Shown: piece after piece, positions 1,158-13,440 of the stretch
Numbering within the stretch: position 1 is the first letter of the stretch
How the letters are laid out: each line of letters opens with the position of its first letter
Source: Candidatus Moraniibacteriota bacterium
Lineage (GTDB): Bacteria; Patescibacteriota; Minisyncoccia; Moranbacterales; UBA2206
DNA: 43,323 nt
Assembly: GCA_030679995.1 (NCBI GenBank)
Contig: JAUXSK010000025.1
Location: 1 to 43,323 of the forward strand
Direction of reading: 5' to 3'
Translations under genes and position numbers: made by a program
The notes under the pieces: model-generated
The model's database searches: none
Told to the model about the DNA's origin: nothing
Seen by the model: the letters and a program-made list of their open reading frames with translations, nothing else

Positions 1158-1445
1158 TTATATTTCGATATTCGTGATTTTCCAATTTCCGCCCGCCACT
1201 TTTTCAATCTTAAACCGCGTATTTTTCAGAATCGTATCTTTGGCGATGCTTTCGATTCCGAACCGCACGTTTTCCAGATCCAGCTCATCGAAATGCTCGT
1301 CATGCGCGTGGTCGTGATGGTGGTTATGCGGTATGCTGGCGCCGCCGATTTCCAAGGAAACCGATTTGATATTTCCGATCTTTTTTTCCTGGCTGATCCG
1401 CAAGACGGCATCGACGATTTCTTTGGCTAATAAAAAATCATGCAT
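1158..1445 (-). CDS. hypA: HypA-like nickel metallochaperone, truncated, with His-rich loop (95 aa)
   Basis: HypA delivers Ni to the large subunit of NiFe hydrogenases. The protein starts MHD, matching the family's N-terminal Ni-binding MHE with Asp for Glu, and continues with typical HypA core segments (SVSLEIGG, LENVRFGIESIAKDT). Two things are odd. Between residues 40 and 51 there are seven histidines within twelve residues, resembling the Ni-storage stretches of HypB proteins. The C-terminal zinc domain with its two CxxC motifs is absent: the protein ends about ten residues after the core. Only 21 nt separate the stop from gap, so no lost zinc domain is hidden downstream. No hypB was found in the window, so the His-rich loop may take over Ni handling (inference). 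Confidence 0.8.
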   Translation of the reverse strand: MHDFLLAKEIVDAVLRISQEKKIGNIKSVSLEIGGASIPHNHHHDHAHDEHFDELDLENVRFGIESIAKDTILKNTRFKIEKVAGGNWKITNIEI

Positions 1446-1511: not shown

Positions 1512-1886
1512 TTACGATTTCCACAATCCGTGGACATTGCAATAGGCCCGCACTTCGATGTGCTCGGCTTCCAAACAGAACTCCGCTTCCGGTTCCATAC
1601 CTGGCTCCAGATGCTTCCGGTAGACGCGATGCTCGGTTATGACTTCGATCCATTCGATATAGTGCTCGCTTTCCATCGGATGCGGCACGCTGCCCACCCG
1701 TACGATCACGCCTTCACTGAACCTTTCCACGACCGGCCTGTGTTTTTCATATTTTTCTTCTTCCTTTTGTTCAACTTGCAAATTCATCGGCTGGCCGCAA
1801 CACACCAACTCACCTACCCCGTTATGCACCACTTCGGTGATATTGCCGCAGATGTCGCATTTATAAACCTGTTTTAATTCCGTCAT
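1512..1886 (-). CDS. dfx: desulfoferrodoxin (2Fe superoxide reductase, 124 aa)
   Basis: Superoxide reductase of anaerobes: it reduces superoxide to peroxide without releasing O2. The N-terminal desulforedoxin-like domain has CDIC near residue 10 and CC (GELVCCGQPM) near residue 28, the rubredoxin-type Fe ligands. The C-terminal neelaredoxin domain carries the catalytic-centre histidines and cysteine in VPHPMESEHYIEWIE and AYCNVHGLW. It lies 18 nt downstream of the hydrogenase large subunit on the same strand, so it is probably in the same transcript and protects an oxygen-sensitive enzyme. The length and both metal sites look complete. Confidence 0.95.
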   Translation of the reverse strand: MTELKQVYKCDICGNITEVVHNGVGELVCCGQPMNLQVEQKEEEKYEKHRPVVERFSEGVIVRVGSVPHPMESEHYIEWIEVITEHRVYRKHLEPGMEPEAEFCLEAEHIEVRAYCNVHGLWKS

Positions 1887-1904: not shown

Positions 1905-3164
1905 TTAGTGCACCGCGCAGGAAATACACGGATCATAGGCTCGGATGAAACCGCGCAATTTCTTTTGTTTATCTTGATCCTTAAGGTTGATTATTTCTTT
2001 GATATACTCCGCCACATCATCTTCCAGATTGGCCAGGAATTGGGCGGTCGGCGTAATGATATTCACGTTTTTCACATAACCCTTATCATCCACATCGACA
2101 TGGTAGTAGAGCGTCCCGCGCGGAGCTTCGACCGCCGCCACGCCGACTCCCCCGGCGATTTCATACGGCCGAGTGATGACCTTCTCCAAATCGGAATTCA
2201 GAAGTTCCTTTATGAGCCTGGTAGATTCTTCGACGCAATGGATGAGCTCGACCATCTGGCACAGGATATTGTGGAACGGATTATAGTCCGGAAAAGTGAA
2301 ATTCAAGCTTTCCAAATATCTGCTCGCCTGCGGATTGAGCTTGCTGCGGTTGATATTGATCCGGGCGATCGCGCCGACCATATAACTTATCCCATTATGC
2401 TCGACTTTCTTGATCACTTCGTCCTGTTTCTGTAATTCTTGGAAATCCTGTTCGAATTTTTCCACCGGGATATGCAAGCCGTACGAGGAAACTATGTCGC
2501 CATCATAAACCGCATATTGCCCTTTTTTAGTCAGGCACACATATTCGGTTTCCCGCCGGAAATTGGGAATCTTGATTTTTTTAAAAAATTCCCCTAGCGC
2601 GACGGCGTCTTGCAATGCCCGCTCGCTGTCCACGACGATCTTCCGCAAGGCTTCCGCCTCCGGAGCTTTTTTAAAACCACCCACTTCGTTGGTCAGCGGG
2701 TGGATGACCCGTCCGCCGATGACCCGCACGATATCCATACCGAATTCCCGCAGACGCACCGCGATTTTCGTCTCTTCCGGATAAGTACTGATTAATTGGA
2801 TGTCATTATCCATATCCAAAAAATCCGCCAGTGACAGGAAAAAAAGATGCAAAGCATGCGAATGGATGATTTGCGCCAATTCCATCACCGCGCGCAACTT
2901 CTCGGTTTCCGGCGTGACCTTCACGCCCATCGCGTTCTCCAAAGCCTTGATCGAGGTCAGGTTGTGCACCACCGGACAGATTCCGCAGATCCGTTGGGCG
3001 ATGATTGGCATATCTGTATAATAGCGTCCGATCAAGACGCCCTCGATCAGACGGATGCCCTCCTGCACTTCCAACTTGGCGCTTTTGACATCCCCGTCCA
3101 ACACGCTCGCCATAAACCCGGCATGTCCCTCCATTTTTGCGATATGGTTTATTTTTATGTCCAT
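1905..3164 (-). CDS. hydL: [NiFe] hydrogenase large subunit, group 3-like, without C-terminal extension
   Basis: Catalytic subunit holding the NiFe(CN)2CO site. From the chosen Met at 3164 it is 419 aa. The conserved Glu is in MEGH (residue 13), the first metal motif RICGIC has C60 and C63, and the second is DPCISCAVH with C413 and C416. The protein stops directly after that His. Most large subunits carry a further peptide that a HyaD/HycI-type protease removes after Ni insertion; here it is encoded already in the mature form. The start at 3164 is preferred because an upstream Met at 3206 would overlap the small-subunit gene and adds a non-conserved leader. It follows hydS by 13 nt. Group 3 assignment is by motif style and diaphorase partners; a phylogeny was not possible. 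Confidence 0.95.
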   Translation of the reverse strand: MDIKINHIAKMEGHAGFMASVLDGDVKSAKLEVQEGIRLIEGVLIGRYYTDMPIIAQRICGICPVVHNLTSIKALENAMGVKVTPETEKLRAVMELAQIIHSHALHLFFLSLADFLDMDNDIQLISTYPEETKIAVRLREFGMDIVRVIGGRVIHPLTNEVGGFKKAPEAEALRKIVVDSERALQDAVALGEFFKKIKIPNFRRETEYVCLTKKGQYAVYDGDIVSSYGLHIPVEKFEQDFQELQKQDEVIKKVEHNGISYMVGAIARININRSKLNPQASRYLESLNFTFPDYNPFHNILCQMVELIHCVEESTRLIKELLNSDLEKVITRPYEIAGGVGVAAVEAPRGTLYYHVDVDDKGYVKNVNIITPTAQFLANLEDDVAEYIKEIINLKDQDKQKKLRGFIRAYDPCISCAVH

Positions 3165-3177
3165 AATTTTTGTATTT

Positions 3178-4293
3178 TTATGATTTTTCCCGCTCCTCGA
3201 TGTCATCCCTCAGTCCGAAAATTTCAGCGATGTTTTCAAATTCATGGTCGCTCACCATATTCCTGAGAGCCGCGCGCATCGCTTTCACGTTGCCCGTCGG
3301 CCGAAGACCGCGACAACCCTGGCAAGTCATCCGGGAGGTCGGACAGACCGCGCCGCACCCACCCTGGATCATCGGTCCGAAACACGGTTTCTTATCAAGC
3401 AACAAACAGCGGTTGCCGGCCGCTTTGCATTCGACGCAAACCGGCTGATCAGGGATGACCGGAATCCGGCCCGCCAGCAATTCCGGAATGTAACGCAAAA
3501 ATTCCTCGCCGGAAATCGGGCAGCCCGGAAAAACGAAATCGACTTTTACGAAATTATCAATCTCCCTGATTTCCGGATTATTGATGCCGTGGATATATTT
3601 ATAGACATGCTTGATCGTATTGGCGCCTTCCTGGTAATTTTTGATTTCCGGGATACCGCCCATCGCCGCGCAATTGCCCAGCGCCACCAATAGCTTGCTT
3701 CTTTTACGCAAGGCTTCCAAAGTTTTCACGTTTTCTTCCGTTACCGGATTGCCTTCCACCAGAACCAAATCTAACTCGCCACCACCGTCTTCCTCGTCCT
3801 CGATCAAGCGGAAATCCACCATTTCAATCTTTCCTACGAAATCCAAAAATTTCTCTCCTAGATCAAGCAAAGCGAACTGGCAACCCTCGCAGGAAGTCAG
3901 ACTGGCGATAGCCACCCGCGGTTTTCTCACCGCGGCCTTCGCCCGCTTTGGGGCTATATTTTTTATCCTTACAGCCTTGCCGGTTTTTTTCACATCCGCA
4001 GTTACCGGAGATATCTTGACCTTTTTTTTAACAGCGGATTTTATGGCCGGTTTTTTCTTCCGGTCTGGCGTTTTTTTCCCAACCGCGGATTTGCTTAGCG
4101 ACGTTTTCTTCACACCCGCAGCCTTGCTCTTGGCCGGGACTTTTTTCTTCACTGCCGGTTTTGCCGCCGATTTTTTCGTTTCCGGTTTTTTATCAACCTT
4201 CTTGACCGCTTTGGCTGATGGTTTTTTCCGCACAGCTACGGCAGACAGTTTGCTGAGAAAATTGGAAATTTTTGATTTTTTATTTTCCGCCAT
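3178..4293 (-). CDS. hydS: [NiFe] hydrogenase small subunit with long Lys/Ala/Pro-rich N-terminal tail (371 aa)
   Basis: Electron-transfer subunit of the hydrogenase. Residues 126-371 are the conserved part: CEGC (C135, C138), GNC (C208) and PGCP (C258) bind the proximal 4Fe-4S cluster. Eight more cysteines (C286, 289, 296, 304, 313, 317, 324, 327) would hold two further clusters, as in MvhG-like group 3 small subunits. Residues 1-125 are very basic and low-complexity, with many KKP, AVKK and KSA repeats like histone H1 or HU tails, and contain no Met after the first. A GTG at residue 122, just before the conserved start, is an alternative start, but the tail is a clean reading frame of protein-like composition. 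It is the first gene of the hydS-hydL-dfx-hypA-gap block. Confidence 0.93.
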   Translation of the reverse strand: MAENKKSKISNFLSKLSAVAVRKKPSAKAVKKVDKKPETKKSAAKPAVKKKVPAKSKAAGVKKTSLSKSAVGKKTPDRKKKPAIKSAVKKKVKISPVTADVKKTGKAVRIKNIAPKRAKAAVRKPRVAIASLTSCEGCQFALLDLGEKFLDFVGKIEMVDFRLIEDEEDGGGELDLVLVEGNPVTEENVKTLEALRKRSKLLVALGNCAAMGGIPEIKNYQEGANTIKHVYKYIHGINNPEIREIDNFVKVDFVFPGCPISGEEFLRYIPELLAGRIPVIPDQPVCVECKAAGNRCLLLDKKPCFGPMIQGGCGAVCPTSRMTCQGCRGLRPTGNVKAMRAALRNMVSDHEFENIAEIFGLRDDIEEREKS

Positions 4294-4371: not shown

Positions 4372-5532
4372 ATGGAGACATTCGCATATGAAAACAAGAA
4401 CGCCCGGCGGATTCTAGCCCTCGGCCCGGAATCGAACGGCAATTTTTCCGTCTTCCAATCCGGTAAAATTTATTTTTCCGAAGATTTCGGGGATTTGATG
4501 GAAGACGCGAATTATCTCAAGTTCAAAAAAAAGATAAGCATATTTTTAAAAGAGAAAAAGATCAAACCGGACATCATCCTGACCGATTCGCATCCTTCCT
4601 ATAGGACGACTGCGCTTGGCCGGGATTTAGCTAAAAAGTACGCGGCTGGACACATCCTAATCCAACACCATCTCGCCCACATCTTTTCCGCCATCGGCGA
4701 CAAGCGGATTTCAGATGACGGATACGCGTTGCCTAAAGATTTTTTCGGCATCGCTATCGACGGCACCGGTTACGGATCGGACGGCAGGATTTGGGGCGGA
4801 GAAATATTCAAATTTGAAAATCAAAAGTTAAAAGTCAAAAATATTAAACGAATCGGGCATTTGGAAAATCAAATCATGCTTGGCGGCGAGTTAGCGATCC
4901 AAGAACCGGCGCGGATGTTGATTGCAATTTTGGCCAAGTTTTTATCCAAAGAAGAAATTTATGCACACATAAAAAAATATTATTCCGCCCAAGAATTCGA
5001 GGTTTTATATAACCAATCGCAACAAAATTTCAATTGCATCGAAACCTCCAGCACGGGCCGGATTTTAGACGCCGTATCCTTGCTTTTGGGTTTTTGCGGA
5101 AACGGAAGGAATTACAAACACGAGCCGGTTTATTTACTGGAAAAAAATTCAACGAAGCCTTACGCTGATTTACATCCGAAATTACAAATCACAAATTACA
5201 AATCACAAACAAACTCAAAATTAGAAATCCAAAACCTGAAACATTATGTATTGCCGACTACGCCATTATTTGAATATCTAATCGAAAATTTACACAAAGA
5301 CAGCTCCAGGCTCGCCGCCACCGCCCAACTCTACATCGCTGAAGGTTTATATGAAATACTTTGCCATTCCGGCCTTGGGCTGGAATCCGGTTTTTTCGCC
5401 GGCGGCCTCGCCAACAACGAAGCGATTTCCAAATACCTGGTCTCCAAGGGTGTTTATGCGAATAAAAAAATCCCCCGCGGCGACGCCGGGCTTTCGTTCG
5501 GACAAATCATTTTCTACTTATCCGGCCATTAA
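4372..5532 (+). CDS. hypF: HypF-like carbamoyltransferase, C-terminal Kae1-like domain only (386 aa)
   Basis: HypF makes the carbamoyl group that HypE turns into the CN ligands of the NiFe site. Full HypF is about 750 aa with acylphosphatase, zinc-finger, YrdC-like and Kae1-like domains. This protein has only the last one. The metal/nucleotide motif HHLAH is at residues 99-103, DGTGYGSDGRIWGGE at 130-144, SSTGRILDAV near 226-235, and a C-terminal GGLANNEA motif matches the Kae1 fold. The YrdC step (carbamoyl-AMP formation) must come from elsewhere, for example a separate protein. Two segments, about residues 148-158 and 270-290, are Asn/Lys/Gln-rich and encoded by the AT-rich repeat found between genes. 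It is transcribed away from hydS and is one of only two convincing plus-strand protein genes. Confidence 0.85.
   Translation: METFAYENKNARRILALGPESNGNFSVFQSGKIYFSEDFGDLMEDANYLKFKKKISIFLKEKKIKPDIILTDSHPSYRTTALGRDLAKKYAAGHILIQHHLAHIFSAIGDKRISDDGYALPKDFFGIAIDGTGYGSDGRIWGGEIFKFENQKLKVKNIKRIGHLENQIMLGGELAIQEPARMLIAILAKFLSKEEIYAHIKKYYSAQEFEVLYNQSQQNFNCIETSSTGRILDAVSLLLGFCGNGRNYKHEPVYLLEKNSTKPYADLHPKLQITNYKSQTNSKLEIQNLKHYVLPTTPLFEYLIENLHKDSSRLAATAQLYIAEGLYEILCHSGLGLESGFFAGGLANNEAISKYLVSKGVYANKKIPRGDAGLSFGQIIFYLSGH
5179..5235 (+). repeat. AT-rich interspersed repeat inside the hypF-like coding sequence
   Basis: The words AATTACAAATCACAAA are repeated in tandem and followed by CAAACTCAAAATTAG. This closely resembles the intergenic sequence at positions 1-30 of the window. 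It is in frame and encodes about 20 residues rich in Asn, Gln, Thr, Lys and Ser that lie between conserved HypF blocks, so it looks like a tolerated insertion. Confidence 0.55.
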
Positions 5533-6244: not shown

Positions 6245-6273
6245 AACATAGCACATTCCGGCCTTTTTGTCAA
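6245..6273 (-). promoter_or_regulatory. sigma70-type promoter of the 172-aa gene
   Basis: TTGACA (6273-6268 on the minus strand), a 17-nt spacer ending in TGC, and TATGTT (6250-6245) form a near-consensus promoter with an extended -10. The -35 overlaps the hypE stop codon. The leader is about 105 nt and ends in AGGAGGA. The spacer/-10 area also forms the hairpin AATGTGC/GCACATT, which could end hypE transcription. Confidence 0.65.
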
Positions 6274-7250
6274 CAGATCCGGGGAATCAATTTTCCACGC
6301 GGGATATCGATTTTTTTGACACCCCCCAGCGAAGTTTTCAAATACAGTCCGCGCCCGCGCGTGACAGCGCCGATGATTTTCGCCTCCTTGTTGAATTTTC
6401 GCAGTATTTGAATGGCTTTTTTGGCATATTTTTGCGGAACCGTCGCCACGAACCGGCCTTCCGACGGAAAAGAAAATTTGTCGATACCCAGAAGCTCCGA
6501 TAACGCGACCGTTTCCTTGGCAAACGGCAAAGCATCCTCTTCTAAAATTATTTTCACTTTGGATTTTTCCGCCATCTCATTGAGCACGGCCGCCGCTCCG
6601 CCCCGGGTCGGATCTTTGCACGAAGTCATATATTTGGCCACGCTTTGGATTTCCAGTGTCAAAGGCCGGCAATCGCTTCGGATTTTAGTCTTGTAATTGA
6701 AACGGCTAGCCAGAAGAGCCACGGCATGCTCGCCCAAATTGCCGGAAGCGATGACTGCGTCCCCTGCTTGCGCCCCGCTATTGTTGATTATTTTTTTGGC
6801 CAACCCCACTCCGGAAGTCGTGATCTCAAGTTTGTCGATCTTACCCCGTTCCGTAACTTTAGTGTCCCCTGTCACGATCGGTACGCCCGTAATTTTCGAA
6901 ATTTTTCCGATCGATTCCATTATTTTTTGCAAATCTTCTTCCGGAAAACCTTCTTCGATCACCAAACTCAAACCGATACCGATCGGGCGGGCGCCCATCA
7001 CCGACAGATCGTTGATGGTGCCGCACATCGCGATCTTGCCGATATCGCCGCCTGGGAAAAAAATCGGATCCACGATGAAAGCGTCCGTCGTAAAAACCAA
7101 TTGCTCCTTGCCGATCCGGAACGAAGCTCCGTCATCCTGCGTGTTTTTCCACCGGCGACTTGCGCTGAAATTCCGGCGGATCTGCGCGATCAACCGATTG
7201 GATTTTTCTCCGCCTGCTCCAGCTTCCAATTCGATCATTTCTTTTTCCAT
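6270..7250 (-). CDS. hypE: hydrogenase maturation protein HypE (carbamoyl dehydratase)
   Basis: HypE accepts the carbamoyl group from HypF on its C-terminal Cys and dehydrates it with ATP to a thiocyanate, the source of the CN ligands. The protein ends IPRIC, with the required terminal Cys. The N-terminal part has the family's GAGG and the PurM/ThiL-type ATP-binding segments (DDGASF, TTDAF, GTINDLSVMGA, VTGDTKV, SCKDPTRGG). Met at 7250 or 7238 can be the start; the latter gives an ATGA overlap with the VanZ-like gene and begins MIELEAGAGG, close to the usual N-terminus. It is translationally coupled to the genes upstream (hypC-hypD-vanZ-like-hypE). Confidence 0.95.
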   Translation of the reverse strand: MEKEMIELEAGAGGEKSNRLIAQIRRNFSASRRWKNTQDDGASFRIGKEQLVFTTDAFIVDPIFFPGGDIGKIAMCGTINDLSVMGARPIGIGLSLVIEEGFPEEDLQKIMESIGKISKITGVPIVTGDTKVTERGKIDKLEITTSGVGLAKKIINNSGAQAGDAVIASGNLGEHAVALLASRFNYKTKIRSDCRPLTLEIQSVAKYMTSCKDPTRGGAAAVLNEMAEKSKVKIILEEDALPFAKETVALSELLGIDKFSFPSEGRFVATVPQKYAKKAIQILRKFNKEAKIIGAVTRGRGLYLKTSLGGVKKIDIPRGKLIPRIC

Positions 7251-7633
7251 TGGTTGAATTTTAAAATTAAAATTGCGGCCAAAACGATGCCGATCAGATC
7301 GATCGCCACATCCCTCGGCGTACCCGTCCGGCCGAAAACGAAAGTCTGGTGCCATTCATCGGAAGAGGCATATAACAAAGCTAAAACGGAAGAAAACAGC
7401 AAAGCTCGCTTTTGGGAAATATTTCGCGAAAACGCCCAATATAATAAAAAATTTAAAATAAAATATTCGATGATATGGAAAGCTTTCCTCTCAATGAAAT
7501 AGAACAAATTGAAAGGCCGGATGTCGTGCCCTTCCATAGCCGAAAGACCGAAAATCACTGCTAGCCAGACCAGCACCGCCAGCCACGGCAATATTTTTTC
7601 TAATTTATCACTTCCCATATCTATATTCCACAT
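7235..7633 (-). CDS. VanZ-like family membrane protein (132 aa)
   Basis: A small protein with about four hydrophobic segments (near residues 15-32, 52-68, 77-90, 108-126) and the VanZ-like signature SSDEWHQTFVFGRTGTPRDVAIDLIG near residues 89-114. VanZ-like proteins are integral membrane proteins of mostly unknown activity, some linked to glycopeptide resistance. The start at 7633 has GGAGGGG upstream, inside hypD; a second Met lies at 7618. It overlaps hypD at its start and hypE at its stop, so it is locked into the hyp operon. No known role in hydrogenase maturation explains this. Confidence 0.85.
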   Translation of the reverse strand: MWNIDMGSDKLEKILPWLAVLVWLAVIFGLSAMEGHDIRPFNLFYFIERKAFHIIEYFILNFLLYWAFSRNISQKRALLFSSVLALLYASSDEWHQTFVFGRTGTPRDVAIDLIGIVLAAILILKFNQWKKK

Positions 7634-8648
7634 TACAACTCCCCTCCACCGAAACCATACAGGCGCCTTGCGGTTTGTCCGGCGTACAGACCCGTCCGAA
7701 AAGCGGACAGCCTTGCGGCTCGATCAATCCCTGCAATACCAAACCGCATTTGCAAGCTGACGGTTTGGGCTTTATCTCTTTTTTTATTTTTCCAATCAAA
7801 TCCCGATACATAAATTCCGCGTCTTGCTTTTGATATTTTTTCCGGATTTTCAAACCGGAACCCTTGATTTCCCCCAACCCCCGCCACCTCGCATCACTCG
7901 TTTCAAAAACTTCCGCGATCAACTTGCGCGCTTTCAGATTACCTTCTTTTCTGACCAAGCGCGGATAAGCGTTTTCCACCTCTTTCCTGCCTTCCAGGAT
8001 TTGCGTCAAAAGCATCTCGATCGCCCGCAAAACATCTTCACCGGAAAAGCCAGCCACGACTTGCGGGATCTTGAATTGCCGATAGGCTTCCGTGCCGATG
8101 ATCGCGCTGACATGCCCCGGATCGATGAAGCCGTCGACTTTGATTTTCTTGTCAGCCAACAGCGCCGCCATCGCCGGCGGAAAAAGCTTATGGGCGCAAT
8201 AGACTATCAACCCTGCTTTGATCGCCCAAGCCGTCATACCCGTGGTCGTTTCAAAACCCAAACCAAAAAACACCAAACCGGGTTTTCCTTTGGCCATCGC
8301 CACCGCTTCCGCGATATCATACACGACCGACACATCCGCGCCTTTCCGCCGGGCCCCTTCCAAGCTCATCAGATTGCCCGGTACATTAAGCGTGTCGCCG
8401 TAAGCCGCCACCGGTACGCCTGAGAGCGCCAGGCCGGCCATCACGTCGATATCCGATTGGTCGGTCACGCACACCGGACAGCCCGGGCCGGAAACTAATT
8501 TTACATTCTTAGGCATCAAGCTCTTGATTCCATTCTGCGCGATCGTTTGCGAATGCGTCCCGCACAATTCCATCAGACGCAAAGGCCGGCCGATTTTGCT
8601 AGCCTTATTATGGATACTTTGTAGAATTTTTTTATTTCCTGATTTCAT
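7608..8648 (-). CDS. hypD: hydrogenase maturation protein HypD (346 aa)
   Basis: HypD, with HypC, is the scaffold on which Fe(CN)2CO is assembled. Visible hallmarks are LCGTH (C29), GPGCPVC (C57, C60), GFETTTG, and FIDPGHVS in the middle. A C-terminal 4Fe-4S cysteine set lies in CKCGLVLQGLIEPQGCP and GRVCTPDKPQGACMVSVEGSC. The length is normal. Its ATG overlaps the hypC stop (ATGA), indicating tight coupling with its partner protein. Confidence 0.97.
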   Translation of the reverse strand: MKSGNKKILQSIHNKASKIGRPLRLMELCGTHSQTIAQNGIKSLMPKNVKLVSGPGCPVCVTDQSDIDVMAGLALSGVPVAAYGDTLNVPGNLMSLEGARRKGADVSVVYDIAEAVAMAKGKPGLVFFGLGFETTTGMTAWAIKAGLIVYCAHKLFPPAMAALLADKKIKVDGFIDPGHVSAIIGTEAYRQFKIPQVVAGFSGEDVLRAIEMLLTQILEGRKEVENAYPRLVRKEGNLKARKLIAEVFETSDARWRGLGEIKGSGLKIRKKYQKQDAEFMYRDLIGKIKKEIKPKPSACKCGLVLQGLIEPQGCPLFGRVCTPDKPQGACMVSVEGSCNVEYRYGK

Positions 8649-8948: not shown

Positions 8949-10355
8949 TTAAAATTTCCGCGATTGACCTCCCCCATTCACGCATCCGCCCGGACAGACC
9001 ATGCATTCGATGATTTTCGTCCTGATCCGGCCCTTGTCCAGGTCGCGCAGGATATTTTTTATCTGCGGCACCCCGTCCGCCGCGATATATTCCCCTCCGG
9101 TCTTCTTGGCGAGCATTTCCGCCGCTCCGCCCGCATGCGCCATATTTTTGACGCTTTCATTTTTCACAGCGAAATCCTTGCCAAAACCAGTGCTTTTTAT
9201 TTCCGCCAATTTAAGATTTTTTTGTCTGATCAGCCGGCCCAGCTCCCTGACAGTCAGGACATAGCCGAGATTGCCACTCCTGTCTTTTTTCTTGGCCACG
9301 CACGAGGAAATGGAAATGACCACGATATCTTGCGGATTGATCTTATGCTGTTTGGCATAACCGTTTTTGATGGCCTGCGCCATCAATTCATCCGGATTGG
9401 CGACATCCAGGATATTGTCCTTGAACTGCGGATAATATTTATCCACCAATAAATTAAAGGACGGGCAATGGCTGAGCATCAAATTGCCCTTGCCACTTTT
9501 TTTGATGGCCTGCGCCATTTTTTCCAGCGCCGATTCCATTCCGAACCCTAAATCAAAAACTTTTTCAAAACCCAGCGCTTCCAGCACGCCGATCAATTTT
9601 CCGACCGAATCGATTTCCGGCTGTTCCAAAGCGACCGATTCCAAAACAGCTGGATCAACCAAAGCGATAGCCATCTTTTTCAAATCATCCAGTTCGCCTA
9701 TGATCTTATCCAAATCATTTTTGTCCGTCAGTGCTCCCGTCGGGCAATTTTTCACGCACTGCCCGCAAAAGATGCAGTCCAGCGGTTTTTCATAGGGCGT
9801 GCCCACCACTACGTCGCCCGCCCGGTTATTGAAAGAAAATTCTTTGATCGGACAGATATTGACGCATCTCCGACACTCCACGCACAATTCAGTCGTCCGG
9901 GAAACACAAGAATTACCCTCATCCACCACCACCCGCGAACGGTTGTCTTTCAGTAAATCAAGATTTTCATGATCTGTCATCTCTTCTTTGCGAGGAATGA
10001 AATGGAAATTTTCGATTTTCTGTTCCGTCGCCAAATTCTGCAGTTCGCAACGCTGGTTTTTTTTACAAGTGACGCATTTGCCGGCATGGTCCGCCCACAA
10101 CAATTCCAGGTTGATCCGCCGAGCCTGGGAAATTTTTTCACTTTCCGTCACGATTTCCATCCCTTCGGAAACTTTTGTATTGCAAGAAGTCATCAGGCGC
10201 CCGCCGCATTCCACCACGCAAATCCGGCACACGCCTTCATGAATCCCTTTCATCCCGCAAAGTGTCGGGATTTTTATGCCGCTTCTCAAACAAACCTGAA
10301 AAATCGTTTCCCCGGGCTTTGTTGCAATATCTTGATCGTTGATTTTTATTTTCAT
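8949..10355 (-). CDS. hydA: HydA-type Fe-S subunit with remnant [FeFe]-hydrogenase H-domain (468 aa)
   Basis: An electron-transfer subunit. The order is: N-terminal 2Fe-2S ferredoxin/NuoG-like domain (C33, C43, C46, C58); a His-Cys 4Fe-4S motif (H90, C94, C97, C103); two ferredoxin-type 4Fe-4S motifs (C158/161/164/168 and C194/197/200/204); then a region related to the [FeFe]-hydrogenase H-domain. That region keeps the four cysteines that bind the H-cluster cubane: C297 in LSHCPSF, C352 in SSCVAKK, C454 and C458 in CMVCPGGCVNGGGQ. However, the proton-relay Cys position before C297 is His, the MPC motif is SSC, about 40 residues are missing between the second and third motifs, and the protein stops right after GGGQ. 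It is therefore probably a Fe-S relay rather than an active hydrogenase, as expected for the HydA of a HydABCSL complex. Confidence 0.88.
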   Translation of the reverse strand: MKIKINDQDIATKPGETIFQVCLRSGIKIPTLCGMKGIHEGVCRICVVECGGRLMTSCNTKVSEGMEIVTESEKISQARRINLELLWADHAGKCVTCKKNQRCELQNLATEQKIENFHFIPRKEEMTDHENLDLLKDNRSRVVVDEGNSCVSRTTELCVECRRCVNICPIKEFSFNNRAGDVVVGTPYEKPLDCIFCGQCVKNCPTGALTDKNDLDKIIGELDDLKKMAIALVDPAVLESVALEQPEIDSVGKLIGVLEALGFEKVFDLGFGMESALEKMAQAIKKSGKGNLMLSHCPSFNLLVDKYYPQFKDNILDVANPDELMAQAIKNGYAKQHKINPQDIVVISISSCVAKKKDRSGNLGYVLTVRELGRLIRQKNLKLAEIKSTGFGKDFAVKNESVKNMAHAGGAAEMLAKKTGGEYIAADGVPQIKNILRDLDKGRIRTKIIECMVCPGGCVNGGGQSRKF

Positions 10356-10505: not shown

Positions 10506-11750
10506 TTATTTGGAAATCTTATAAATTTCATCGCGAAAATTGTCCAGCGCATCCGAGAAAGCGGTAGCCGCGAATTTGCCCAGCGGACAAAAAGTCGTAT
10601 TATTCAAAGTCCACAAGATATCTTGGATAGCCGCCACATCCCGCTCCGACACTTCCCCGTCTTGCAACCGCTTGGCAATTTCCCATAAACGGAAAGTCCC
10701 CTCGCGGCACGGCACGCATTTGCCACAGGATTCCCGACGGAAAAACCCGGTCCAAGACAGCAACAATTCATGGATATCAGCCGTCTTATCCACCACCAGC
10801 ACCGCTCCGGATCCCAGTGGGATCTTCGCTTCGCAATCATATTCCAATTTCAATTTCAAATCCTTTTCCATAGCCAGCCGGCCCGATGACCCGCCTATTT
10901 GCGCGAACCAAAAATCCTTGCCCGCTTGGATGCCGCCAGCATACTTCCCGATCAAATCGACCAATTTTATGCCCAACGGCGCCTCAAAAACATCCGGATT
11001 TTCGACTGCTCCGTTCACGATGAACAATTTGGTGCCAGGGGATTTTTTGGAACCGATTTTCGCGTACGCCTTCCCGCCGTTTTCAATTATCCATGGGATG
11101 TTAGTGATGGTTTCCGCGTTATTTATCGCTGTCGGCTGGCCGAACAGCCCGCACTGGGTCGGATAGGGCGGCCGCGCTTTCGGCTCGCCGCGATTGCCCT
11201 CGATGGAATTGATAAGCGCCGTTTCTTCCCCGCAAATATACGCCCCGGCACCCGCGAAAAGTTCCATTTCCAAACCATATTTAGAGCCTAAAATATTTTC
11301 GCCAATAAAGTCTTTTTCCTGGGCCTGTTCCACTGCCCGCTCCAAAATTTCGATTTCTTTCTGATAATTGCCGTTGATATAAATAAAAGCCTTCCGTGCG
11401 CCTACAGCCAGAGCTCCAATAATAATGCCCTCCAATAGCATATGAGGATCGTTATCCACGATCGACCGGTCCTTGTAGGTCCCCGGCTCGGATTCGTCCA
11501 GGTTGCAAATGAAATACTTCTCCTTGCTTTTTTCCGAAGCCACGCATTCAAGCTTCCGACCGGTCGGAAAACCGGCTCCGCCCCGTCCACACAATCCAGA
11601 AGTTTTAATTTCCTCCAAAACCGATTGCGGGGACATCTCCGCCACGAATTTGCGCAAAGCCCGATAACCGCCAGCCGCGATATATTCCTCTATCTGATTA
11701 GGATTTATGCGCCCCCAATTTTTGGTTATTATTTTTATTTCCTTCTTCAT
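10506..11750 (-). CDS. hydB: NuoF/HydB-type NADH- and FMN-binding subunit
   Basis: Diaphorase subunit that exchanges electrons with NAD(H) through FMN. It contains the NADH-binding GRGGAGFPTGRK, the FMN-binding GAGAYICGEETALINSIEG and the 4Fe-4S motif ESCGKCVPCREGT with a distal Cys in NNTTFCPLG. About 414 aa from the chosen start, it is the NuoF core only: the thioredoxin-like N-terminal and ferredoxin-like C-terminal domains of long HydB proteins are absent. The Met at 11750 (MKKEIKI) is chosen because TATAAT ends exactly six bases before it; a Met two codons upstream (11756) would abut the -10. Its partners are HydA downstream and HydC, which is separated by a plus-strand gene and an RNA. 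Confidence 0.94.
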   Translation of the reverse strand: MKKEIKIITKNWGRINPNQIEEYIAAGGYRALRKFVAEMSPQSVLEEIKTSGLCGRGGAGFPTGRKLECVASEKSKEKYFICNLDESEPGTYKDRSIVDNDPHMLLEGIIIGALAVGARKAFIYINGNYQKEIEILERAVEQAQEKDFIGENILGSKYGLEMELFAGAGAYICGEETALINSIEGNRGEPKARPPYPTQCGLFGQPTAINNAETITNIPWIIENGGKAYAKIGSKKSPGTKLFIVNGAVENPDVFEAPLGIKLVDLIGKYAGGIQAGKDFWFAQIGGSSGRLAMEKDLKLKLEYDCEAKIPLGSGAVLVVDKTADIHELLLSWTGFFRRESCGKCVPCREGTFRLWEIAKRLQDGEVSERDVAAIQDILWTLNNTTFCPLGKFAATAFSDALDNFRDEIYKISK

Positions 11751-11756
11751 TTCCAT

Positions 11757-11762
11757 ATTATA
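11757..11762 (-). promoter_or_regulatory. -10 element (TATAAT) of hydB, leaderless-type start
   Basis: On the minus strand TATAAT is followed by six bases and the ATG at 11750. The -35 region is weak. The geometry predicts an mRNA that begins at the start codon, as for hydC and the hypF-like gene. The remaining stretch 11790-12012 shows no gene or other signal. Confidence 0.5.
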
Positions 11763-12012
11763 TCGCAACAACCATATTTTGCATATCAAACCGATAAATC
11801 GCCTGTCACTATCTTAGCTTGCCGCTTGGCCTGGAGCGTTCCCAAAACTAAGTTTTTGAGAGCGCCATTCCCATCCATAAAGCTTAATTTTGCTGGATTA
11901 TGAAAAAGTCCCGATCTGATAAAAATAACCGCGCGCACTCATTATGCCACGATTTATCAGTAAAATATCCTCTGTTATTCTTGCTTTGTTTGCGCCCCAA
12001 ACAGCCTCAGTC

Positions 12013-12041: not shown

Positions 12042-12152
12042 TAAAAATCGTGCTTAATTTTAATCGCCGCCAGTTTGACTTTTAGATTAAACCCGGTATC
12101 ATTTAAAGAATACTGGCACATTCCAATACATTCAAACAATTCGGGGGTCACA

Positions 12153-12689
12153 ATGCAAAAAGAAATTTCTACGGACGAAATTATCGAAGCGTTAGGCACT
12201 ATAATTTCAGGCGAGGATTCCAAAGCCGCAAAAGAAATCCTAAAGGGACTCAAAAAATCCCATTCTGAAATAATCCAGGACATGCTGGAATTAATGACAC
12301 AGAAGGCTTTGAAGGCAGGGATATTTTTCCACCCTGATTCCAAGGTGACCGTGCTTGATCCGGCCCACAATCCGAATTACTCAATACTTATGTGTCCCGT
12401 ATTATCGGATTATCATCCAGGTGTAATGTTCCGATGGGCGTTTACAGAAGTTGAAAACGGTAAACATTACCTGCCTGATGATACTCTTGTATCATATGGC
12501 TATTCAGATTACATCATCCTGCTGATAGACGTAGCTGCCGAATGTGACAGCCACGTAGTCAGAAGGATAACCGAAATGGCCCGACAAATTTCACCGAAGA
12601 CAGTCGTCATTGTGATGGCCGTCATAAGCCGCGGTTTTACGGCCGAGAGCTTGGGAGTGGATGAATTCTATCCCCTCTTGGAGTTATAG
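12153..12689 (+). CDS. uncharacterised protein, monocistronic orphan gene between hydB and hydC (178 aa)
   Basis: I do not recognise this protein. The start MQKEISTDEI is chosen because GGGGGT lies about five bases upstream; the frame is open further upstream but without a better signal. The N-terminal 60 residues look helical (EALGTII, AAKEILKGLKK, QDMLELMTQKA). The rest alternates strands and helices. The segment YIILLIDVAAECDSHVVRRITEMARQ followed by TVVIVMAVIS faintly recalls the core of a phosphoribosyltransferase-type fold, but the usual acidic PRPP loop is not there. It has its own promoter and its own terminator and runs against all neighbouring genes, so it is a self-contained unit inserted between two subunit genes of one enzyme. 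Confidence 0.75.
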   Translation: MQKEISTDEIIEALGTIISGEDSKAAKEILKGLKKSHSEIIQDMLELMTQKALKAGIFFHPDSKVTVLDPAHNPNYSILMCPVLSDYHPGVMFRWAFTEVENGKHYLPDDTLVSYGYSDYIILLIDVAAECDSHVVRRITEMARQISPKTVVIVMAVISRGFTAESLGVDEFYPLLEL

Positions 12690-12996: not shown

Positions 12997-13440
12997 TCAA
13001 ATATAGTTGCGCAATATATCATCCACACTGCTGGGCGTCACCTTGGTGAAGACATTGCCATTGACGACCATTACCGGTCCTTGGCCGCATTGTCCCAAAC
13101 AACTGATGATTTCGAGTTTCACTTTAGGATTGAAATCATCGCCAGCCTTAATGCGCAACTGGCTTTCGATTTCACGGATGACTTTAAAACCGCTTTTCAC
13201 CGCGCAGTTGGCGCCGGAACAGACCTGGATGACCAGATCCGGCTGTTTTTTGGTTTTGACCAAGTCATAGAAGCTGGCAGTTTCATAAACCTTGGAAAAC
13301 GGTATGGAAAAATAATCCGCCGTTTTTTGTGCTTCCTCCTCGCCGACATAACCGAAACCGGCGTTGATTTTTTTCAGCGCCGACAATAGGTTTTTTTGCT
13401 CCGGATCGAATTCCAAAAGGATTTTTTCAACTGTTATCAT
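12997..13440 (-). CDS. hydC: NuoE/HydC-type 2Fe-2S thioredoxin-like subunit (147 aa)
   Basis: Small diaphorase subunit that binds one 2Fe-2S cluster next to the NuoF/HydB subunit. The cluster cysteines are in CSGANC and CLGQC (C-x4-C and C-x3-C), with the N-terminal helical part and thioredoxin-like C-terminal part of normal length. The start has TATAAT six bases upstream. It is needed to complete the HydABC-type electron-transfer module, yet it is cut off from hydB by the orphan gene and the small RNA. Confidence 0.93.
   Translation of the reverse strand: MITVEKILLEFDPEQKNLLSALKKINAGFGYVGEEEAQKTADYFSIPFSKVYETASFYDLVKTKKQPDLVIQVCSGANCAVKSGFKVIREIESQLRIKAGDDFNPKVKLEIISCLGQCGQGPVMVVNGNVFTKVTPSSVDDILRNYI

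Follow-up and report, generated by a model that had tools for sequence, protein, structure and literature searches.

Hybrid hydrogenases of archaea, described by Greening et al. in Cell in 2024, are said to be complexes in which [FeFe] and [NiFe] hydrogenases have become fused. Three further described systems serve as comparison. The NiFe-HydABCSL complex of Acetomicrobium mobile (NiFe-Bfu, or Bfu type 3; PDB 7t2r) is, like the present system, encoded by hydABC and a [NiFe] SL pair in one locus (PMC8880783, PMC9304861); its HydA has no H-cluster motifs and holds a [4Fe-4S] cluster in its C-terminal domain, its HydB contains the B2-B5 clusters and is bifurcating, and a single cluster is present in its HydS. 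Group A6, the non-bifurcating HydAB(C) type of NADH-dependent [FeFe]-hydrogenase (PMC7311640), combines a HydB without bifurcation clusters, as found here, with a HydA that carries the H-cluster. The group 3b [NiFe] hydrogenase of P. furiosus (sulfhydrogenase I, PDB 9e15/9nez) has a beta/gamma diaphorase, and a survey placed group 3b hydrogenases of Moranbacteria in a Pyrococcus-like gene arrangement (PMC10811913). The combination of HydABC with a [NiFe] pair and an H-cluster-less HydA is already known from A. mobile. New, as far as checked, is a version from the bacterial CPR that is group 3b-like and apparently non-bifurcating, with an H-domain stripped to its cubane and with the states before and after preserved in relatives.

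The window, i.e., the whole stretch of 43,323 nucleotides that was analysed, comes from an uncultured, tiny bacterium of Candidatus Moranbacteria. The minus strand carries, in order, hydC, hydB, hydA, hypD, a VanZ-like gene, hypE, hydS, hydL, a desulfoferrodoxin gene and hypA, with part of hypF on the plus strand. Glycolytic genes lie at both ends of the locus: those for fructose-bisphosphate aldolase and triosephosphate isomerase at one end, and GAPDH (from sequence reading) at the other.

12997 to 13440, minus strand: hydC, NuoE-like [2Fe-2S] subunit, four Cys retained
10506 to 11789, minus strand: hydB, NuoF core (FMN, NADH, B1 cluster), no B2-B5 clusters
8949 to 10355, minus strand: hydA, class II (degenerate H-domain), 468 aa, ATG to stop
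7608 to 8648, minus strand: hypD (Pfam)
6270 to 7355, minus strand: hypE-like, AIRS domains (Pfam)
4372 to 5532, plus strand: C-terminal (Kae1-like) part of hypF (Pfam)
3178 to 4293, minus strand: hydS, [NiFe] small subunit of group 3b-like type, with 12 Cys for three [4Fe-4S] clusters and a Lys/Ala-rich N-terminal tail
1905 to 3206, minus strand: hydL, [NiFe] large subunit, RICGICPVVH and C-terminal DPCISCAVH
1512 to 1886, minus strand: desulfoferrodoxin (superoxide reductase), TIGR00320 above cut-off
1158 to 1445, minus strand: hypA-like, conserved place in the operon (sequence reading and synteny)

Both [NiFe] motifs of HydL are intact and the 12 Cys of HydS are conserved. The best solved matches of HydS and HydL are the delta and alpha subunits of P. 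furiosus sulfhydrogenase I, respectively, and both proteins score below the NCBIfam equivalog cut-offs. HydS differs from that of A. mobile in carrying three clusters rather than one. The gamma subunit of the sulfhydrogenase (PF10418) is absent from the genome of the window, so HydABC is the only diaphorase found nearby and stands in the place of the beta/gamma pair; the gene arrangement of the family differs from the Pyrococcus-like one of the survey. HydL stops at DPCISCAVH (1905-1934, minus strand) with no C-terminal extension, as in all complete relatives read, so the usual cleavage by a maturation peptidase seems unnecessary. The tail of HydS (3923-4293, minus strand; about 120 residues) is Lys/Ala/Pro-rich and histone-H1-like, and its length is very variable among relatives. 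An ORF of 204 aa with no Pfam match (12075-12689, plus strand) lies between hydC and hydB on the opposite strand; it is 64% identical in G001, a genome of the same genus, and was not found in the other loci compared.

The five subunits (A, B, C, S and L) are those of the Acetomicrobium complex, which would suit bifurcation to NAD and ferredoxin. However, HydB lacks the ferredoxin-like B3, B4 and B5 domains, Asp takes the position of the B2 ligand Cys438 of A. mobile HydB, and the stretch with His525, Cys531 and Cys536, the other B2 ligands, is missing. In a related enzyme, the absence of B3 and B4 accompanies an absence of bifurcation (PMC11406978). Electron bifurcation was rejected on the loss of B2-B5, and we consider it very unlikely in this putative complex.

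HydA consists of two parts.

9690 to 10355, minus strand: residues 1-222, NuoG/HoxU-like electron-transfer domain (Pfam)
8952 to 9689, minus strand: residues 223-468, H-domain in shortened form, lacking a 2Fe pocket (AlphaFold and Foldseek)

The front part comprises Fer2_4, NADH-G_4Fe-4S_3 and two-[4Fe-4S] ferredoxin domains (Pfam). Its ligands for A1 (C33, C43, C46, C58), A3 (H90, C94, C97, C103) and A2/A4 (C158, C161, C164, C168, C194, C197, C200, C204) are kept in 60 of 60 homologues. Fe_hyd_lg_C was matched over residues 229-462 with E = 9.6e-43, so the resemblance of the H-domain to [FeFe]-hydrogenases is homology and not chance. The protein nevertheless falls below every NCBIfam [FeFe] cut-off, with 169 vs 406 bits for TIGR02512 and, for its best match NF040763, 308 vs 765; in this, it differs from the H-cluster-bearing HydA of group A6. 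HydA of A. mobile (692 aa) aligns only with residues 14-211 of the window protein, so sequence comparison does not identify its C-terminal domain as an H-domain.

Of 55 near genomes, 37 contained relatives of HydA, placed by named records in Candidatus Moranbacteria/Moraniibacteriota, and these relatives fall into three classes. Class I proteins (about 546-608 aa) have canonical motifs. Class II, to which the window protein belongs (464-482 aa), has the cubane ligands only. Class III proteins (about 338-353 aa) have lost motifs 1 and 3 by deletion, and Lys, Arg, Asn or Glu replaces the motif-2 Cys.

The first-pass annotation had described a shortened H-domain that keeps the four cubane cysteines, and the alignment to CpI bore this description out in each particular. 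C297, C352, C454 and C458 correspond to CpI C300, C355, C499 and C503, with the first two 55 residues apart in both proteins. H296 replaces the proton-relay Cys (CpI C299), and the MPC motif reads SSC. The distance between motifs 2 and 3 is 102 residues vs 144 in CpI, a loss of about 42, and the protein ends in GGGQSRKF, lacking the PF02256 tail of canonical relatives.

9654 to 9656, minus strand: D234 codon, in the place of CpI Ala230 beside the 2Fe site, Asp in all 11 sequences of class II
9465 to 9470, minus strand: H296-C297 codons, His for the proton-relay Cys and the first cubane ligand retained (CpI alignment)
9300 to 9308, minus strand: S350-S351-C352 codons, SSC for MPC and the second cubane ligand retained (CpI alignment)
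8982 to 8996, minus strand: C454-PGG-C458 codons, cubane ligands three and four (CpI alignment)

The roles of the pocket residues in CpI are established. Four of them, Ala230, Cys299, Met353 and Phe417, are kept in 34 of 34 canonical HydA proteins (Phe417 as Phe or Tyr), and all four are changed in every one of the 11 class II sequences, where Ala230 is replaced by Asp, Cys299 by His, Phe, Asn, Ser or Tyr, Met353 by Ser, and Phe417 by an aliphatic residue. Only the equivalents of Lys358 and Met497 persist in the pocket (10/11 each), which is more than a simple loss requires and counts against one. The four cubane cysteines are invariant in all 11 sequences at a mean H-domain identity of 49%, while C451, the sole other Cys of the domain, varies; the rough chance of four given columns all falling among the 30 invariant ones of 233 is 2e-4. 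Purified apo-HydABC without the 2Fe subcluster retains the H-domain cubane (PMC9499530), and a lone [4Fe-4S] cluster in the window HydA would thus be chemically ordinary. Judged from these residues, loss of the 2Fe subcluster site with retention of a putative four-Cys cubane site is well supported for class II.

The same substitutions bear on whether HydA might still work as an [FeFe]-hydrogenase whose 2Fe pocket is unusual and whose maturation depends on other factors. The intact fold and the retained Lys358 equivalent would fit such an enzyme, as would the lack of HydG among canonical relatives, since another maturation route may then exist in the class. Nevertheless, with the changes at Ala230, Cys299 and Met353 in all class II sequences, the loss of proton-path positions, and scores far below the family cut-offs, we regard an active enzyme as extremely unlikely.

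It had been proposed that absence of hydE, hydF and hydG would support loss of the 2Fe subcluster. The genome of the window indeed lacks HydE and HydG, and HydF is below cut-off, but the absence is not diagnostic. HydG was found in 0 of 30 Paceibacteria genomes with a full-length canonical-type HydA, whose H-cluster motifs are intact wherever read, and neither HydE nor HydF was above cut-off in the eight class I genomes also searched. Class I loci with canonical HydA include L048, L049, L050, L051 and L099-L118. No conserved maturase was found beside class I HydA, where the neighbours are HydBC, a small membrane protein and otherwise housekeeping genes. The absence of hydEFG is thus uninformative and was rejected as proof that the 2Fe subcluster is lost; the case rests on the pocket residues.

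In G016, a genome of the same family, a HypC-HydE fusion and HydG replace hydCBA-hypDE in the [NiFe] HydSL operon (L058:7037-9776). The fusion scores above cut-off for both TIGR00074 and TIGR03956, and HydG matches TIGR03955 with 564 bits. A search of this genome gave no HydA match and no HypD. This arrangement points to a possible use of [FeFe] maturases for a [NiFe] site.

The whole-protein model of HydA had a pLDDT of 73 with a poor N-terminal domain, and the H-domain was therefore modelled alone (AlphaFold, 24 relatives), giving a pLDDT of 89.2 and a pTM of 0.87. Compared with T. kivui HydA and CpI, the model has a TM-score of 0.85-0.86 (Foldseek) and a complete hydrogenase fold, so the shortening took away a loop and a tail and spared the core. 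The A. mobile chain 7t2r_A was not among the best 50 Foldseek matches of the model, which is not proof that its C-terminal domain is other than an H-domain.

A decaying, functionless relic would be expected neither to keep four Cys invariant while C451 varies nor to show an H-domain dN/dS of 0.08-0.20 (where dS is unsaturated), a range that indicates purifying selection. The ratio of H-domain to electron-transfer-domain identity is 0.73 in class II vs 1.01 in class I (14 near sequences), so the H-domain evolves faster in class II, and in class III it is truncated; both observations would suit decay. The selection and the invariant cysteines led us to reject a pure relic, and we consider that reading improbable.

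In a tree of the electron-transfer domain, classes II and III form one clade (100/100) nested among class I, and class III lies inside class II with modest support (82/95). This nesting favours the order I, II, III. Sampling of the class (384 genomes) and of the phylum (380 genomes) gave matches of class II/III length and similarity in the family of the window only, a count that leaves aside one further short match (G468, 427 aa, from a bin 68% complete). A canonical HydA is also present in G001, of the same genus as the window; it was not taken as a sign of coexistence of both forms, as the contig groups with another family and the bin is listed with 5% contamination, and this HydA is probably a contaminant. 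Another genome, G005, encodes a second, distant H-domain-like protein (L057:8760-9446; 283 aa, 25% identity) with SPCPT and SPCHAK motifs and no NuoG-like front.

The [NiFe] large subunit (PF00374) was found in 10 of 11 class II genomes and 15 of 16 class III genomes (25/27 together), and the two without it are 70% and 79% complete. Six of the eight class I genomes have no [NiFe] large subunit, and the other two have only a divergent one. The association between pocket loss and a [NiFe] partner represents one change on the tree rather than many independent tests, and is supported by the synteny of the hydABC and hydSL locus, which is conserved in relatives. Counting against HydABC and HydSL as one unit, HydSL lies about 4.7 kb from hydA with an opposite-strand gene in between.

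Taken together, the pocket substitutions in 11 of 11 sequences, the [NiFe] partner and the phylogeny lend good support to loss of the 2Fe site and conversion of HydA to electron transfer. It is likely that HydA is a former [FeFe]-hydrogenase that neither makes nor oxidises H2 and serves as the electron-transfer subunit in a [NiFe] enzyme that is soluble and NAD(H)-linked, HydABC plus HydSL. Most likely, it links the NADH:FMN module (HydBC) electronically to the [NiFe] site. Electrons from NADH would enter at FMN/B1 of HydB, pass through A1, A2 and A3 or A4 of HydA, and continue through the three [4Fe-4S] clusters of HydS to the [NiFe] site of HydL; the reverse direction is possible. With HydB lacking B2-B5, no ferredoxin bifurcation is expected. 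In a glycolytic fermenter, such a complex could dispose of NADH as H2, or operate in reverse.

The H-domain keeps its fold and probably holds a single [4Fe-4S] cluster on its four Cys, as the apo-hydrogenase does with its cubane. The initial reading of HydA as a pure electron-transfer subunit holds for the A1-A4 clusters; that the H-domain cubane carries current is doubtful, because sister genomes drop its ligands and keep HydSL. Class III proteins have no cubane ligand, yet their genomes keep HydSL with the same 12 HydS Cys, and the cubane is thus probably no obligatory relay. Its loss in class III suggests a place off the main path, probably at the end of a branch, where it could be structural or an electron store. 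Alternatively, HydS might dock on the H-domain, with electrons passing from A4 through the cubane to HydS and class III later rewired to A4 or A3. The invariance of the four ligands beside a variable C451, and the dN/dS values, which place the cluster under selection, would agree with such a path. Class III speaks against it, as does A. mobile, where the S subunit passes electrons to A3 and the cluster in the C-terminal domain is an end point (PMC8880783, PMC9304861). We consider an on-path cubane unlikely and favour the off-path position.

The series of canonical, cubane-only and cubane-less HydA suggests an order of events by which an [FeFe] module can become the wiring of a [NiFe] enzyme. 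The latter two forms both occur within one family of ultrasmall bacteria, and these natural intermediates make hydrogenase replacement testable by comparison. It is conceivable, if rather doubtful, that the Moranbacteria series preserves, in living forms, the replacement of one hydrogenase active site by another on one scaffold, in which the class II cubane gained a new job, either as an on-path relay or with the invariant Asp234 (and His296 in the clade of the window) refilling the 2Fe pocket with another ligand or metal. For annotation, a Fe_hyd_lg_C match may place such a HydA among the [FeFe]-hydrogenases, even though H2 production by the protein itself is very improbable.

Two additional genes were noted near hydS in relatives. 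In several of them, hydS and hydL are separated by the gene of a membrane-anchored, matrixin-like metalloprotease (HELGHxxGxxH), with PF00413 above cut-off for L042. Furthermore, a protein of 211-239 aa with no Pfam match is encoded between hydA and hydS in the HypD-less class II/III genomes G010, G005, G019 and G002.

L037:2253-3206, L042:12306-13235, L046:12107-13030, L034:3086-4045 and L058:10577-11521: matrixin-like metalloprotease
L037:4348-5025, L040:10470-11189, L042:10506-11141 and L046:10034-10699: 211-239 aa protein
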